Source of the DNA: Actinomycetota bacterium | Lineage (GTDB): Bacteria; Actinomycetota; Actinomycetes; Mycobacteriales; JACQDL01 | Length of the DNA: 42,819 nucleotides | Direction of reading: 5' to 3' | Assembly (NCBI GenBank): GCA_016201065.1 | Contig: JACQDL010000033.1 | Coordinates: 1 to 42,819, forward strand | Shown here: piece by piece, positions 445 to 7,763 of the stretch | Position numbering within the stretch: the first letter of the stretch is position 1 | Layout: each line of letters starts with the position of its first letter | The notes under the pieces: generated by a model | Seen by the model: the letters and a program-made list of their open reading frames with translations, nothing else | Told to the model about the DNA's origin: nothing | Databases searched by the model: none | Translations under genes and position numbers: made by a program

Positions 445-1212
445 TTACCCGGCCTGCGTCACGATCCCGAACGCCGCTCCGGACGGGTCCGCGCAGGTCA
501 CGAACCGCCCGTAGGAGGAGTCGACCGGACCGGCCACCAGCGCACCACCGGTCGCGGTGACCTTGGCAACCGTCGCGTCGACGTCCGCCACCGTGAAGTA
601 GCAAAGCCACCTCGACGGGCCGGCCTGACCCGCCGGAATCTGGTACCGCCCGGCGACGGTCTCGCCACCGACCTTGAGCATGGTGTAGTTGGGGTCCGGA
701 AGGCCGTCCGCCTTCTCGAACTCGTAGCCGAACACGGCGCCGTAGAACTTGTCGGCGGCGTCCGCGTCGCTGGTCGCCAGCTCGCTCCAACGCGGCGCAG
801 CGGGCTCATTGACGAGCTGCGCACCGAGGTGCTGCTTGGCCTCCCAGAACCCGACGTTGGCACCGGTGGGGTCCTGCACGAACCCCCGGCGCCCGAACTC
901 ACCGGACGCCGTGGCCGGCATGGTGACAGTGCCGCCTGCCGCGGCGGCCGCCGCCATGGTCGCGTCCAGATCGGCCGTGGCGAGGTAGGTGGACCACGTC
1001 GGCGCATCACCCGAGCCCGGGACAATCGGCCCGATTCCCGCGACGGGCTTGTCCCGCAGGAAGGCGATGCCGTAGTTGCCGAACTCCTCACCCTGGCTGC
1101 GCACCTCCCAGCCGAACAGGTCGGAGTAGAACTTGGTCGCGGCCTGAATGTCGGTGGTGCCCAGATCGACCCAGTTAGGTTCGCCTGACTGGTAGCTGGT
1201 CCGCTCGGACAT
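445..1212 (-). CDS. Two-domain VOC (glyoxalase/bleomycin resistance-like) protein
   Basis: The 255-residue protein has two vicinal-oxygen-chelate modules in tandem, each starting with the typical pattern (PNWVDLGTTDIQAATKFYSDLFGW near residue 12, and PRWSELATSDADAADKFYGAVFGYEF in the second half). Each module ends with a DPTGA or DPSGA loop followed by a beta strand. This is the organisation of the actinobacterial CFP30B/Rv0577-like family. VOC proteins bind a metal and act on small electrophiles or on dihydroxy compounds, but the substrate of this group is not established. The start codon ATG has AGGGAG upstream. The gene is probably transcribed alone: 113 bases separate it from rlmB and a strong hairpin follows it. 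Confidence 0.85.
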   Translation of the reverse strand: MSERTSYQSGEPNWVDLGTTDIQAATKFYSDLFGWEVRSQGEEFGNYGIAFLRDKPVAGIGPIVPGSGDAPTWSTYLATADLDATMAAAAAAGGTVTMPATASGEFGRRGFVQDPTGANVGFWEAKQHLGAQLVNEPAAPRWSELATSDADAADKFYGAVFGYEFEKADGLPDPNYTMLKVGGETVAGRYQIPAGQAGPSRWLCYFTVADVDATVAKVTATGGALVAGPVDSSYGRFVTCADPSGAAFGIVTQAG

Positions 1213-1325
1213 CGCACTCCCTATGGTCTGGTAGTGATGAGAACGTCCAGTTTGCCACCACCGATGTGACGCTCTTCACGCGGCCGTCGGGATCGCGCAC
1301 CGTGCCTGGAACTCAGCCTCGACGG

Positions 1326-2291
1326 TCAGCCTCGACGGGCCGCCCGCCGCCTGCGGGCCACCTCGGCCAACCCGATCGCGGCGGCCACGCTCGCGTTCAG
1401 CGACTCGGTCGCCGTAGTGATCGGGATCGACACCCTGATATCGCAGGTCTCCCCGACCAACCGGGACAACCCGCGCCCCTCGGAACCGATCACGAGCACG
1501 ACCGGGTCCACCGCGACCCCAAGATCGTCCAGGGACGTGGCCCCGGCCGGGTCAAGGCCAACCACCGTCAGCCCAGCCTTCGCGTACGTCGTCAGGGTGC
1601 GCACCAGGTTGGTCACCCGCGCCACCGGCAGTCTCGCCGCGGCACCGGCCGAGGTACGCCACGCCGCCGCGGTGATCCCGGCCGCCCGGCGCTCCGGAAC
1701 CAGCACGCCGTTCGCCCCGAACGCCGCCGCCGACCGGACGATGGCTCCGAGGTTGCGCGGATCGACGACGCCGTCGAGCGCCACAAAGAGCGCTGGCTCC
1801 GCCAGCTCACTACTGGCCTGGAGCAGGTCGAGTGGATCGGCGTATCGGTACGGCGGCACCTGCAGGGCCACGCCCTGATGCAGCTGGGCGCCGGTCCGCC
1901 GATCGAGCTCGGCCCGGCTCACCTCCAGGATGGAGATACCACGGTCACCGGCCGCCCGAATCGCCCCGGTGACCCGCTCGTCGGAGTCAATGCCGAGCGC
2001 GAGGTAGAGCGCGGTCGCGGGCACCTCCGCGCGCAGTGCCTCCGCGACCGGGTTCCGCCCGACCAACAGCTCCGGACCGTCCGGTGCGGGCCGCCGCTGG
2101 GCCGCGCGGGCAGTGGCGGCCACGGCGCCGGCAGCCCGCTTGACGGCCGGGTGTCCGGTCCGGTGTTCCGCCCGCGGCGTCGGCCCCTTCCCCTCCAGGC
2201 CACGGCGACGCTGGCCGCCCGAGCCGACGACCGCGCCCTTCTTGCTCCCAGGATTGCGCCGTGCGCCCCGACGCTGCGAGTTCCCCGCCAT
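1326..2291 (-). CDS. rlmB: 23S rRNA (guanosine-2'-O)-methyltransferase, SpoU family
   Basis: The 321-residue protein is a SPOUT-class RNA 2'-O-methyltransferase. An Arg/Gly-rich basic tail of about 75 residues is followed by the substrate-binding domain starting at [12 protein letters not shown] and the knotted catalytic domain with the three SpoU motifs: [28 protein letters not shown] and [18 protein letters not shown]. The E. coli homologue methylates G2251 of 23S rRNA in the peptidyl-transferase P-loop. The long basic tail is usual in actinobacteria. The start ATG at 2291 overlaps the TGA of cysS (TGATG), so translation of the two is probably coupled; the cysS-rlmB pair is conserved in actinobacteria. 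Confidence 0.93.
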
Positions 2292-3691
2292 CAGTACTGC
2301 CCCGATCGTCCGCTGTGCGTCCACCGTGATCCCTGCGGGGTGTCCTCGACAACGATCCCCGCCCCGACAAGCTCTGCCCGGATCGCGTCCGCAGCACCGT
2401 AGTCCCTGCGCTCGCGGGCGGCCTGACGCTGCGCCAGGGCCAGCGCCACCAGCCGGTCAATGACGGCCTGGAGCCCACCCCCGCCGGCGACCGCCCAGGG
2501 TGGGGCGAGCGGGTCCAGCCCGAGGACGCCGAGCATGGCGCGCACCGACGCCTGCATGCTCGCGACCGCGCCTCGGTGTCCCGCCGCCAGCGCGATGTTG
2601 CCTTCCCGGACCACCTCGTGGATCGCGGCGAGGGCGGCCGGCGTTCCGAGATCGTCATCCATCGCCTCGGTGAAGTCGGCGCAGAGCAGCCCGGGTGGCT
2701 GGTCGGTACCGACCAGGTCGGCCGCCCGCAGCACGAAGCCCTCCAGCCGCCGGTAGGCGGCGGCAGCCTCGCCGAGCGCATCCTCGGAGAAGTCGATCAT
2801 GGACCGGTAGTGCGGACCGACCAGGTAGTAGCGCAGCTCCACCGGCCGGACCCTGGTCACCAGGTCGGGGATCAGCAGCGAGTTGCCGAGCGACTTGCTC
2901 ATCTTCTCGCCACCCACCGTGAGCAGCCCGTTGTGCAGCCAGCAGCGGGCGAACCCGTAGCCCGCCGCGCGCGACTGGGCGATCTCGTTCTCGTGGTGCG
3001 GGAAGATCAGATCAGTACCGCCACCGTGAATGTCGAACGTGTCACCGAGGTACTTGCCGGCCATGGCCGAGCACTCCAGATGCCAGCCAGGTCGCCCTGG
3101 GCCCCATGGGGTCTCCCACTCCGGCTCGCCTGGCTTCGCGCCCTTCCACAGTGTGAAGTCCAACGGCTCGCGCTTGGCTCCGGACCCGTCCTCGGCGGAA
3201 CGCATCTTGTCGATCCGCTGACCCGACAGCGCACCGTACTCAGCGTAGCCGCGCACATCGAAGTAGACGTCCCCGCCGGCGGCGTAGCCATGTCCCCTGT
3301 CGATCAGCCGACGGATCAGGGCGATCATCTCCGGGATGTGCCCGGTGGCCCGCGGCTCCACCGTCGGTGGCAGGCAGCCCAGCACGTCGTACGCCCAGGT
3401 GAAGGCCCGCTCGTTGCGGGCGGCGACCTGCCACCATGGCAGCCCGTCGGCCGTCGCGACGCGCAGGACCTTGTCATCGATGTCCGTCACGTTGCGGCAG
3501 AACGTCACGTCGAGGCCGGTGCGGGTCAACCACCGGCGGAGTACGTCGAAATTCACGCCGGACCGGATGTGCCCGATGTGGGGCGGTGCCTGGACCGTAG
3601 CCCCGCACAGGTAGATGGAGGCGCGGCCGGTAGCCAACGGCGTGAAGTCGCGGACCGATCGGGTGCTCGTGTCGTACAACCGCAGCGTCAC
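2291..3691 (-). CDS. cysS: Cysteinyl-tRNA synthetase
   Basis: The 466-residue class I synthetase charges tRNA-Cys. The HIGH signature is seen in [16 protein letters not shown] and the KMSKS loop in [12 protein letters not shown]. Candidate zinc ligands are present: Cys in LCGAT, Cys in WHLECSAM, and His/Glu in [11 protein letters not shown]. Its length and KMSKS loop fit CysS rather than the shorter mycothiol ligase MshC. The start is the GTG at 3691, giving [11 protein letters not shown], which matches the usual CysS N-terminus; the frame stays open for 95 codons upstream but that part is not conserved-looking. It follows the FHA gene by 59 bases, so it may be read through from the kinase operon or have its own promoter there. 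Confidence 0.95.
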
Positions 3692-3750: not shown

Positions 3751-4539
3751 TCAGCCGAGATAACGCTGCACCACGTCGAGTGTGACGATGCCGTGGCCGA
3801 CGGCGAACTCGACGAGCTGCTCCTTGCGGCCGCCGCGCCGTGGCGCGCCGGATGCCAGCCGGACCACTGCCTGCTCCTGCTGTTCGGCGGAGGCCCGGCG
3901 GGCCCGCTCGGCGGTCCACGCCCGCTCCCCGATCGGCAGCTTGGCACGCACATCGTCCAGCCTCCGGTCGACCCACTCGCCGCGTCGTACCTGGGCCAGC
4001 AGCCCACAGTCATAGAGTCGGTCAGCGACCTGCTGGCTGGTCGGGATCCACGGGCTCTCCGGATATCGCAGCGTCGGCTCGCAGAGCGCGACCAGGCACA
4101 GGTGGTAGGCCGTCCCCTCGGCCAGCGCCCACGCCGGACGGGTCCGGTCCGCACCGGCGGCCGCGCTGGTCTCCGCGGCGGCGTCCTCCGTCGGCACGGC
4201 CTGCCCCCCGTGCACCTCGAACTCGAACGCGTCGCTGGTCGCGGCGAAGCTCACCCGGGCCCGGTTGCCGTTCACCACCAGATGGGTGTTGCCTGGTCGC
4301 AGGGTACGGCGGGCCACCCCGGGCTCGTCCAGCAGCAGCGGGTTCGATCCCGTGTTGGTCACCAGCACGCCGTACGGCGTCGCCTCCACGGTGCCGGCCC
4401 GCCGGCTGACCCGCGGGCTCTCGCTCACGGGCAGATCCACCTGCGGCGCCGAGGTACGACCGAACGCCAGCCGCTCACCGAGCAGCAGCGGAAGCGGCGC
4501 CTGACCCGGGCAGTCGATCCGGGCCACCAGTGGTGGCAC
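3751..4539 (-). CDS. FHA-domain protein with C-terminal winged-helix-like domain
   Basis: The 262-residue protein begins with a forkhead-associated fold. GR at 27-28, the VSRR strand at 44-47 and TGSN at 63-66 fit the phosphothreonine-binding loops, but the usual His of SRRH is Ala here. After a linker, residues of roughly 135-220 ([18 protein letters not shown]..., then [10 protein letters not shown] and [13 protein letters not shown]) look like a winged helix-turn-helix. FHA domains read phosphothreonine, so this is the natural reader for the kinase encoded just upstream: the kinase stop and this GTG start are two bases apart, which indicates translational coupling. By inference it is a phosphorylation-responsive DNA-binding or adaptor protein. 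The FHA call is fairly sure; the winged helix is tentative. Confidence 0.7.
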
Positions 4540-4541
4540 CG

Positions 4542-6416
4542 CTACCGCCTGCCGTGCGTGCGGGTGCCGAGCTGCTGCCAGATCCGGTCGAGCGCGTCCC
4601 CGGGGGTGGTGCCAAACCCGTAGGCCGCCACGACGACGCCGAACAGCAGCGCAGCGACGAGGACCATGACGGCGAGCACGGTCTGCCCGAGCGGGCCGAG
4701 CCGGCGCCCCCGCGCGGGCTGGATCGGGGCGGGTGCCCAGACCTGCGCTGGCGGTACCCGAACCGGAGGAGGCTGCACCGGACGGGACACCGCACCGACC
4801 GACCGGGACCCGGACGGACCCATCGGCACGCCGTGGGCCGGCACGCCGTGGGCCGGCACTGCCGCAGCGCGCCGCTGTGGCACGGTCGCATCGACCCGGG
4901 CCTGCTCCAGCCGCTCCAACCGGCGCGCGAGCTGCTCGTACTGCACCCTCAGCTGATCCCGCTCGTGGGTCACCTCGGCCATGGCCAGGCCGATCTGCCT
5001 GGTGCGCGCAAACTCCGCCTCAAGGACCAGCTGGGTGTCCGGCTCATCCCTGGCGGCGAGCTGCCGCTCGATCTCGCGGACCCGATCCGACTCCGCCGCG
5101 AGCTGGGCTGCCGCCCGCCGCCCGTCCCGCGCCTGCTGCGCCAGCGCCGGCACGACCACGTCGAGCAGATGTCGGTAGGAGTCGATGACGAGCCCGGGGG
5201 ATCCGACGAACGCGCCCTGCAGCCGACCGAGCGGCTTGGTCTGGTACAGCGCGAGAAGCTGGCCGTCCGCCGGCAACAGCGCCGCGATCCGCGGCCGTTC
5301 GTCAGGCCACGGCACCGCCTCGAAGTCCTCCGACAGGACCAGGGCGGCGAGACGGGTGCGGAGCTGCTCCGCCGTCCGCACCGAACGCACTGCCGGGTCG
5401 TGGACCAGGCAGTCCTTGAGCAGCGCCCGCCAACCGGCGGAGAGACGGTCGTCCACCGTGTACCGACCGGCGCACACCAGCTCGTACTGCTGCTCCGGGG
5501 TGTGCGCGGTGGTGATGTGCCGGCCGGTCAGGATCCGATGCATGGTGACCGCCAGCGCCCACACGTCGCCGGCCTGGCTCGCCCGCCACCCCTCGGCCGG
5601 CGGTCGCCGCACCCCATCGGCCCCGAGATCACCCTGGTCGCGGGTCTCGGGCGGCCAGTACGCGATGGTCCGGGCCTGCCCGATGGGCACCGCCCGGGTC
5701 GACTCCAGTGGTGCGGAGATGCCGAAGTCCGCGATGGTGAAGCGGGGGCCGACCCGCAGCAGGTTCGTCGGCTTGATGTCCCCGTGCACGAAACGGCGGG
5801 CGTGGATGTGCTCAAGCCCGGCGGCGACCTCCTCGAAGACCGCCGCCCATGCGCGCTCGGCCGGCGCGCACCGGTCTCCCAGGTCGTAGAGGTCCTCCGC
5901 GGCGAGCTCCAGGACCATCCCGACGCATCGCTGGGTGTGCTGCCCGGGCAGCTCGAACCGGAACGACGTGATCATCGCGAGGACGTTGTCGTGCCCCTCC
6001 ACCGCGACGCACGTCTCGGCTTCGGCGGAGAGCTGGTCGAGCTCCTCGGGGGTCCCCCACACACATTTCAGGGCCCGCTCGTCCGGGCCGAACCCGGATA
6101 CGGTCTCCGGCGTGGCCGGCTCGGTGCGGTACACCGAGGAGAACCCGCCGTCGGCGAGGTAGGCCAGGATCCGCCAGGAGCTGGTCGACCCGGCCCCCAC
6201 GACGGCACCGACGTCCAGGGAGACATTGCGCAGCGCGCCACCTCCCCCGCCGGACGCTCCGGTGTCCGCTCCCTGCGGCTGCGCGGCATCGGGCGCCGCC
6301 GGCCCGTCGATCGTGCCGGCCGGCGGCTCCGCCGCCTCCTCCGCCATCACGGCCGGGCCACGTGCGTCGCCGAGCTCCTCCCCGTCGACAGAACCCGGGT
6401 CAAGCGTGGCCGGCAT
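4542..6416 (-). CDS. Membrane-anchored Ser/Thr protein kinase (non-RD)
   Basis: The 624-residue protein has a low-complexity N-terminus (about 60 residues), a Hanks-type kinase domain, a coiled coil and one C-terminal membrane helix near 575-600 (TVLAVMVLVAALLFGVVVAA). Kinase landmarks are the glycine loop LADGGFSSVY (87-96), Lys117 in ERALKCVW, the catalytic loop HGDIKPTNLL (211-220) and DFG (230-232). The catalytic loop has Gly in place of the Arg before Asp, so it is not regulated by the usual RD mechanism. No PASTA repeats or extracellular sensor follow the membrane helix; only about 25 residues lie outside, so sensing is probably cytoplasmic. I chose ATG at 6416, preceded by GGGAGG; a TTG at 6443 is possible. 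It is transcribed divergently from the sigma-factor gene. Confidence 0.88.
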   Translation of the reverse strand: MPATLDPGSVDGEELGDARGPAVMAEEAAEPPAGTIDGPAAPDAAQPQGADTGASGGGGGALRNVSLDVGAVVGAGSTSSWRILAYLADGGFSSVYRTEPATPETVSGFGPDERALKCVWGTPEELDQLSAEAETCVAVEGHDNVLAMITSFRFELPGQHTQRCVGMVLELAAEDLYDLGDRCAPAERAWAAVFEEVAAGLEHIHARRFVHGDIKPTNLLRVGPRFTIADFGISAPLESTRAVPIGQARTIAYWPPETRDQGDLGADGVRRPPAEGWRASQAGDVWALAVTMHRILTGRHITTAHTPEQQYELVCAGRYTVDDRLSAGWRALLKDCLVHDPAVRSVRTAEQLRTRLAALVLSEDFEAVPWPDERPRIAALLPADGQLLALYQTKPLGRLQGAFVGSPGLVIDSYRHLLDVVVPALAQQARDGRRAAAQLAAESDRVREIERQLAARDEPDTQLVLEAEFARTRQIGLAMAEVTHERDQLRVQYEQLARRLERLEQARVDATVPQRRAAAVPAHGVPAHGVPMGPSGSRSVGAVSRPVQPPPVRVPPAQVWAPAPIQPARGRRLGPLGQTVLAVMVLVAALLFGVVVAAYGFGTTPGDALDRIWQQLGTRTHGRR

Positions 6417-6586
6417 CCCACCAGCACCTCCCGGAAATCCCAATCGACCGCTCTCGCGGTGAGCCTAGCGGGATCGCCCGACACGCGCCGTTGCTCCGCC
6501 GCGGGAGGCCCGGGGGATTCCCCCCTTCCCGGCCACTCCGACCCAGATCACGCTGGGGCCAGCACGATCCGAGGGGGAGATCATCG

Positions 6587-7183
6587 ATGGTTGCCACACA
6601 ACCCGGCACGACGGTGTCGTGGGCCGGCCTGACCGCGGAAGGCCGCAGCGAGCTGGTGCGCTTCGCGCAGGCACGGCTGGGCCGGACCCGCCTGCCCGGT
6701 ATCGACGCCGAGGACGTCGTCCAGGAGGTCCTGCTACGGATGATCGACCGTGGTGCGATCCAGTCGACTCGGACCGGGCCGGCCAGCGCCCGACGGGGGC
6801 CACAGGGGGCCGCGACGCTCATCGAGCATCCAGCGGCGTACCTGCGGCGGGCGGTGGCGAACGAGTGCGTCTCCCGGTGGCGCAGGCTCCACCGGGAGAC
6901 GCTGACCGGTGAGCTGCCGGAGCAGTGGACAGATGATCACGCGGAGCTCAGGGCGAGCTGGCTGGCAGTCTCGGCCGCGCTCGGCCGGCTCACGCCACGA
7001 CAGCAGCAGATCCTGGCCCGGGGCTTCCTGCTCGATCACTCCGACGACCAGATCGCGACCGACCTGCAGATCAGTCCGGTCACGGTGCGCACGATGCGCC
7101 GCCGCGCGCTGGCCCAGCTCCGGGTGCTCATGGAGCTGCCGCCACGCCCACCGCGGCAGGAGGCGCTGCGGGCGACGGCCTGA
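6587..7183 (+). CDS. Sigma-70 family (ECF-like) RNA polymerase sigma factor
   Basis: The 198-residue protein has a sigma region 2 (DAEDVVQEVLLRMIDRG near residues 43-60, then PAAYLRRAVANECVSRWRR) and a region 4 helix-turn-helix (ALGRLTPRQQQILARGFLLDHSDDQIATDLQISPVTVRTMRRRAL). There is no region 1.1 or 3, as in extracytoplasmic-function sigma factors. The spacing between regions 2 and 4 is short and Pro-rich at the C-terminus. The start ATG at 6587 follows GAGGGGGAGA. No anti-sigma factor is encoded next to it; instead a Ser/Thr kinase and an FHA protein are divergent from it, so kinase control of the sigma factor or of the shared 170-bp promoter region is a reasonable inference. Its stop is only 3 bases from the stop of convergent ispF. 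Confidence 0.85.
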   Translation: MVATQPGTTVSWAGLTAEGRSELVRFAQARLGRTRLPGIDAEDVVQEVLLRMIDRGAIQSTRTGPASARRGPQGAATLIEHPAAYLRRAVANECVSRWRRLHRETLTGELPEQWTDDHAELRASWLAVSAALGRLTPRQQQILARGFLLDHSDDQIATDLQISPVTVRTMRRRALAQLRVLMELPPRPPRQEALRATA

Positions 7184-7186
7184 CGG

Positions 7187-7696
7187 TCACGCCTGTGGCG
7201 GCGTCCGCCTGGTCCACACGGCGCCGGTGTCGAACACGGCCATCGCGACCGCGATGGCCGCCAACCCCTCACCGCGCCCGGTCAGGCCGAGGCCGTCGGT
7301 GGTCGTGGCGGACACCGAGACGGGTGCGCCGACCGCGGCCGCCAGAACCCGCTCGGCCTCACCCCGCCGCAAGCCGATCTTGGGTCGGTTCCCGATGATC
7401 TGCACGGACACGTTGCCTACCGAGAACCCCGCGGTACCGAGACGGCGCGCCGTCTCCTCGACGAGGGATACCCCGGAGGCGTTCGCCCACTTCGGCTCGC
7501 CGGTGCCGAACGCCGAGCCCAGGTCACCGAGCCCGGCCGCCGCGAGCATCGCATCGACGATCGCGTGGGCCGCGACATCGCCGTCCGAATGCCCCGCGCA
7601 CCCATCGACGCCATCCCACCTCAGACCAGCAAGCCAGCACGGGCGACCGTGCTCTACCGGGTGGACGTCGGTTCCGATACCAACCCGAGGGATCAT
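7187..7696 (-). CDS. ispF: 2-C-methyl-D-erythritol 2,4-cyclodiphosphate synthase
   Basis: This 169-residue trimeric zinc enzyme performs the fifth step of the MEP isoprenoid pathway, cyclising CDP-ME 2-phosphate with release of CMP. The family signatures are GIGTDVHPV near the N-terminus (Asp and His are metal ligands), [18 protein letters not shown], and [13 protein letters not shown]. The later segment [27 protein letters not shown] is the CDP-binding end. I chose ATG at 7696, which puts the metal motif where it normally lies; GTG at 7702 is the alternative. It lies 67 bases downstream of ispD, the usual pairing, with carD upstream of both. Confidence 0.95.
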
Positions 7697-7763
7697 GCTC
7701 ACCCGACGTATCCAACCATCTGCGTTCCGGTGACGAGGCCGATCGGCGACGTTGTGGTCACCT

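Follow-up and report, generated by a model that had tools for sequence, protein, structure and literature searches.

Genes at the ispF-cysS junction

The window, by which we mean the whole stretch of 42,819 nucleotides that was analyzed, is one contig from a 3.65-Mb assembly. It carries carD-ispD-ispF and cysS-rlmB, which were named from their own sequences and from matches in relatives. The ispF-cysS junction holds three genes, coding for a kinase, an FHA domain-containing protein and a sigma factor (Table 1). The original prediction, a membrane-anchored kinase and a coupled FHA gene transcribed away from a sigma factor gene, proved correct in its coordinates and in the 170-bp gap, and the kinase has a single membrane helix. 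The stop codon of the kinase gene and the start codon of the FHA gene are separated by only 2 bp, and in the two other genomes in which the trio was found (G021 and G066, see below) the two genes are likewise 2 bp apart or overlap. The sigma factor gene is alone on its strand and ends 3 bp from the stop codon of the convergent ispF gene. It had also been predicted to lack an anti-sigma neighbour, and this was borne out: no anti-sigma gene is found near the trio in the window, the flanking genes being cysS and ispF.

Elsewhere in the order, ispF and cysS lie side by side, with approximately 24-120 bp between the matches in eight of the loci that were read. Since the two genes adjoin in these genomes, the position of the trio is most simply explained by an insertion at their junction.

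Table 1. Features of the ispF-cysS junction in the window, listed by position.
Feature	Position	Strand	Details	Basis
cysS	start at 3691	-	GTG start	
FHA-(w)HTH protein gene	3751..4539	-	262 aa, GTG start	ORF list
Putative HTH of FHA protein	3937..4044	-	residues about 166-201	inference from alignments; HTH_36 in one relative; helices in low-confidence model
FHA domain	4189..4494	-	residues about 16-117	alignment
Hanks-type Ser/Thr kinase gene	4542..6416	-	624 aa, ATG at 6416, stop codon to 4542	Pfam, orthologues
Single transmembrane helix of kinase	4623..4679	-	residues 580-598	hydropathy; layout common to three orthologues
Candidate FHA docking sites, kinase linker	5001..5036	-	Thr461 and Thr472	three-orthologue alignment
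Divergent intergenic region	6417..6586		170 bp	coordinates
Conserved 13-bp element	6512..6524	+	GGGGGATTCCCCC	alignment, whole-genome scan, shuffle test
ECF-type sigma factor gene	6587..7183	+	198 aa, ATG start at 6587	Pfam, NCBIfam, tree
Acidic motif of sigma region 2.2	6704..6715	+	Asp-Ala-Glu-Asp, residues 40-43, intact	sequence, alignments
ispF	7187-7702	-		

The kinase and its FHA partner

The window kinase matches the Pkinase family of Pfam with an E-value of 3e-20, and K117, D213, K215, N218 and the DFG motif at residues 230-232 are invariant in an alignment of the three orthologues. With the lysine, the catalytic Asp and Asn and the DFG motif all in place, the catalytic core is intact and of the Hanks type. 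The catalytic loop reads HGD instead of HRD, which makes the protein a non-RD kinase. The core is followed by a charged, coil-like linker and then by the membrane helix, a layout shared by the three orthologues. The linker contains two invariant threonines, Thr461 and Thr472, which are candidate docking sites for the FHA domain. Beyond the C-terminal membrane helix there is a tail of 26 residues in the window and of 26-27 residues over the orthologues. Because so little follows the single helix, the kinase has no large sensor domain on the outside. The best named matches of the kinase are the MAD6 and PD-T4-6 models of MADS and phage defence. However, MAD6 scores 58.5 bits against an NCBIfam cut-off of 460 bits and the likeness is confined to the kinase domain, and an identity as a phage-defence protein was therefore dropped.

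The FHA protein of the window on its own has no match in Pfam, and its assignment comes from its family. Its orthologues are 64% and 58% identical to it. Among 16 relatives, Pfam detects Yop-YscD_cpl, a family with the FHA fold, in 10 and FHA itself in three. When the family profile was compared to the PDB, all six matches were FHA-type chains, the best being 1uht (E-value 0.003), whereas Ki-67, aprataxin and TB39.8 were matched only at E-values of 0.1-0.3. G27, R28, R46 and N62 are invariant across the FHA domains in an alignment of the 16 relatives, and in the window protein the usual histidine is Ala48. The N-terminal region thus combines the FHA fold with the conserved Gly-Arg pair and the Asn of FHA domains. 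The C-terminal half has a putative HTH, an assignment for which the signals are faint: HTH_36 is weakly matched by one of the 16 relatives (E-value 0.005), the remainder being a reading of the sequence pattern, and a C-terminal profile of the family retrieved no HTH match from the PDB. A single-sequence fold model of the protein, which shows low-confidence helices in this region, has a pLDDT of 42.5 and is unusable. No relatives of the FHA protein were recovered from the viral contigs that were searched.

The sigma factor

Pfam detects region 4 in the sigma factor above its cut-off and region 2 just below it (21.6 vs 24 bits), and the NCBIfam sigma70-ECF model is matched with 46.3 bits, above its cut-off of 42.9. 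The protein is short and has regions 2 and 4 only, as is characteristic of the ECF (group 4) sigma factors. Its best NCBIfam match is the SigE family (TIGR02983), but it scores only 76 bits where the cut-off is 141.55, and it falls outside this family. Relative to the 24 nearest sampled sigma factors, the three trio sigmas form a clade of their own with a support of 100/99 in a tree without distant outgroups; when these are included, the branches are long and the support for the trio is weak (64/39). The acidic motif of region 2.2 is DAED in the window and in G021 and EAED in G066. An alignment of the three trio sigmas contains no conserved Ser or Thr in the linker between regions 2 and 4. The window sigma also has approximately 13 extra residues in region 2 (residues 57-69, AIQSTRTGPASAR; window positions 6755-6793), which are missing from both orthologues. 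No kinase or FHA gene is present in 20 fetched neighbourhoods of the nearest sampled sigma relatives, and the sigma relatives found by a pattern search have no FHA or kinase relative nearby either.

Distribution of the pair and the trio

We surveyed the genes around the relatives of the FHA protein. A kinase gene lies within 3 kb of 40 of the 44 sampled FHA domains outside the window, and of the four without a kinase at least two (L109 and L135) sit at contig ends. The FHA-kinase pair is thus common among the Actinobacteria sampled. In 33 of the 40 cases the FHA gene comes first, in five the genes are on opposite strands, and in these sampled pairs, which consist of homologous proteins encoded by adjacent genes, there is no such sigma factor. 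The kinase precedes the FHA gene, in the reverse of the usual order, only in the remaining two, G021 and G066, and these are, together with the window, the three genomes in which the sigma factor gene is attached to the pair. In some (large, Streptomyces-like) genomes of family f33, two tandem FHA-kinase pairs occur in one conserved neighbourhood (L100:7519-15233, L103:6858-11561).

The module of G021 occupies the same position between cysS and ispF as that of the window. In G066, which belongs to another order, it lies between unrelated genes, and its proteins are 40-58% identical to those of the window. In G007, a congener of G021, the FHA gene adjoins cysS at the edge of a contig. Samples of 395 genomes of the class, 348 of the order and 396 of the phylum yielded no further close FHA orthologues, and the best new match at the level of the phylum was again an FHA-kinase pair. 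As these surveys are samples, they indicate that the trio is rare, without proof that it is limited to the window, G021 and G066. Because it recurs in two other genomes, it is a real conserved module, beyond chance. The expectation that the three genes stay together therefore holds for three genomes, one of them with the module elsewhere, but not for the FHA relatives in general, most of which are paired with a kinase without the sigma factor.

The module of G021 includes a PP2C phosphatase gene (L093:9992-10762), located between the kinase gene, whose start it overlaps, and the divergent sigma factor gene. It has no counterpart in the modules of the window or G066. In the same genome, an insertion of three genes (L093:4683-7344), two of which look like an ABC-transporter pair, separates cysS from the FHA gene, and the stretch from ispF to carD holds two ispD-like matches in opposite orientations (L093:13699-14864).

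A conserved element upstream of the sigma factor gene

In the window, G021 and G066 the divergent region contains GGGGGRTTCCCCC upstream of the sigma factor gene and on its strand, while the rest of the region is poorly conserved. In the window it lies 62 bp ahead of the start codon of the sigma gene. Twelve of its 13 columns are invariant, a number never reached when the three regions were dinucleotide-shuffled 500 times; the best value, 11, was obtained once. In scans of whole genomes a single match was found in G000, the genome of the window, and another single one in G021, in each case at the module, whereas G066 carries four, of which two lie 40 bp from each other at the module and two at other places. 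Of all four G066 matches, one is inside a cse1-like gene; another, GGGGGATTCCCCC at L179:1501-1513, directly precedes a gene (712-1500, minus strand) whose product is a membrane or secreted protein and which is a possible second target. Control scans of the whole genomes with the reversed pattern gave no matches.

We considered the element as the signature of a regulon, but there are no extra copies in G000 or G021, and those in G066 include one in a coding gene. Nor is there support for an operator role at FHA-kinase pairs in general: a loose form of it occurs in two of 33 regions upstream of other FHA-kinase operons, where 3.2 would be expected, and thus shows no excess.

Possible control of the sigma factor

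The trio, which recurs with a shared DNA element in a few lineages far apart, hints at a signalling unit in which the sigma factor is governed with no inhibitor protein of the usual kind. Our preferred reading, held tentatively and short of conviction, is that a kinase-FHA pair took on an ECF sigma factor of its own as output, and that the FHA-HTH protein switches transcription of the sigma gene via GGGGGRTTCCCCC. The membrane-tethered Ser/Thr kinase and its FHA-HTH partner would constitute a signalling pair that, in a small lineage, acquired an orphan ECF sigma factor. In response to a presumed signal, the FHA domain would dock on phospho-threonines of the kinase, either in the linker or in the activation segment, docking would alter DNA binding by the putative HTH, and the altered binding at the element would switch transcription of the divergent sigma gene in a presumed direction. 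The sigma factor, serving a presumed regulon, would be active in itself, with its amount as the limiting factor, and would therefore require no anti-sigma factor. Since the acidic motif is present and no linker Ser or Thr is conserved, the trio sigmas would be expected to bind core polymerase with no need of a switch; the intact DAED motif argues for control of the amount of sigma and not for a phospho-switch. In G021 the PP2C phosphatase supplies the counterpart of the kinase that would be expected in such a circuit. A fuller version, in which the kinase and the FHA-HTH reader, joined in one lineage by the PP2C eraser, run an intrinsically active sigma factor through a dedicated operator as a writer-reader-eraser circuit, seems to us possible but somewhat doubtful.

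As the element was not found at other FHA-kinase operons, it may belong to the sigma factor rather than to the FHA protein. It could be part of a promoter that the sigma factor itself recognizes, for autoregulation, with the kinase pair acting on sigma by some other route or at an earlier step, which we consider unlikely. The element does lie on the sigma strand and, among FHA-kinase loci, is present only where the sigma factor is, and control of their own genes is frequent among ECF sigma factors. However, a single promoter match per genome gives no regulon at that stringency, and the element is a near-palindrome, which is more operator-like, with no shared -10 element recognized.

Equally improbable in our view is that the FHA protein is a phospho-dependent anti-sigma factor or adaptor, which binds the sigma factor and, upon activity of the kinase, sets it free or hands it over to the kinase. 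This would account for a module that lacks an anti-sigma gene and in which the FHA, kinase and sigma genes are conserved together, and phospho-adaptor FHA proteins are known from EmbR-PknH (PMC9239209). Sigma binding would, however, be a new function, since the relatives of the FHA protein mostly have no such sigma factor nearby, and no sequence feature of an anti-sigma factor was found. In Mycobacterium tuberculosis, PknH-EmbR resembles the window in that a kinase gene is paired with that of an FHA transcription regulator. EmbR begins with an OmpR-like DNA-binding domain at its N-terminus, contains a BTAD and ends with the FHA domain at its C-terminus (PMC9239209). The window protein has its FHA domain at the N-terminus and the putative HTH at the C-terminus, and its module includes a sigma factor gene as well.

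Direct phosphorylation, by which the kinase would activate the sigma factor as PknT does EcfP, appears more improbable still. In all three genomes the kinase gene adjoins a sigma gene without an anti-sigma gene, and such pairs are known in ECF43, EcfP-PknT of Vibrio parahaemolyticus and EcfK-PknS of Xanthomonas citri (PMC8999054; PMC13147305). But in kinase-switched ECF sigmas uncharged residues replace the DAED motif, and phosphorylation of one of them restores the charge (PMC8103513; PMC8999054); EcfK uses threonines of the linker in addition (PMC13147305). In the trio sigmas the acidic motif is not replaced by uncharged, phosphorylatable residues but intact in all three (see PMC8103513; PMC13147305), which disfavours an EcfP-type switch, and there is no conserved counterpart of the linker residue T106 of EcfK. 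Direct phosphorylation also leaves the FHA protein unexplained. Further differences from ECF43 are this FHA protein, the PP2C phosphatase of G021 and the kinase tail of just 26 residues (PMC8999054; PMC13147305). The only actinobacterial entry in the list of phosphorylation-regulated ECF groups in PMC8999054 is the ECF283 representative from Nocardioides sp. Root190, like the window sigma an actinobacterial ECF factor.

Finally, that the sigma factor and the kinase-FHA pair are mere neighbours, held together by descent or joint transfer without a functional link, is very improbable: the trio was found in only three genomes and two of these share the cysS-ispF location, but in G066 the genes are together elsewhere, at 40-58% protein identity and with the conserved intergenic element. 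Of the predicted phosphorylation circuit acting on the sigma factor, what stands is a real module with a conserved divergent element, while direct action in its known form is unsupported. Control of sigma by the kinase is plausible chiefly along an indirect path, for example via the FHA protein.

How ECF sigma factors without a nearby anti-sigma gene are controlled has been stated to be an open question (PMC8103513). In the known kinase-linked cases the phospho-switch lies within the sigma factor itself. The module described here keeps the acidic motif and adds a phospho-reader and an operator-like element, which points to a different route. Such a route would link the kinase-FHA pairs that are common in the sampled actinobacterial genomes to transcription and, if true, would be a further way to run an ECF sigma factor without an anti-sigma factor.
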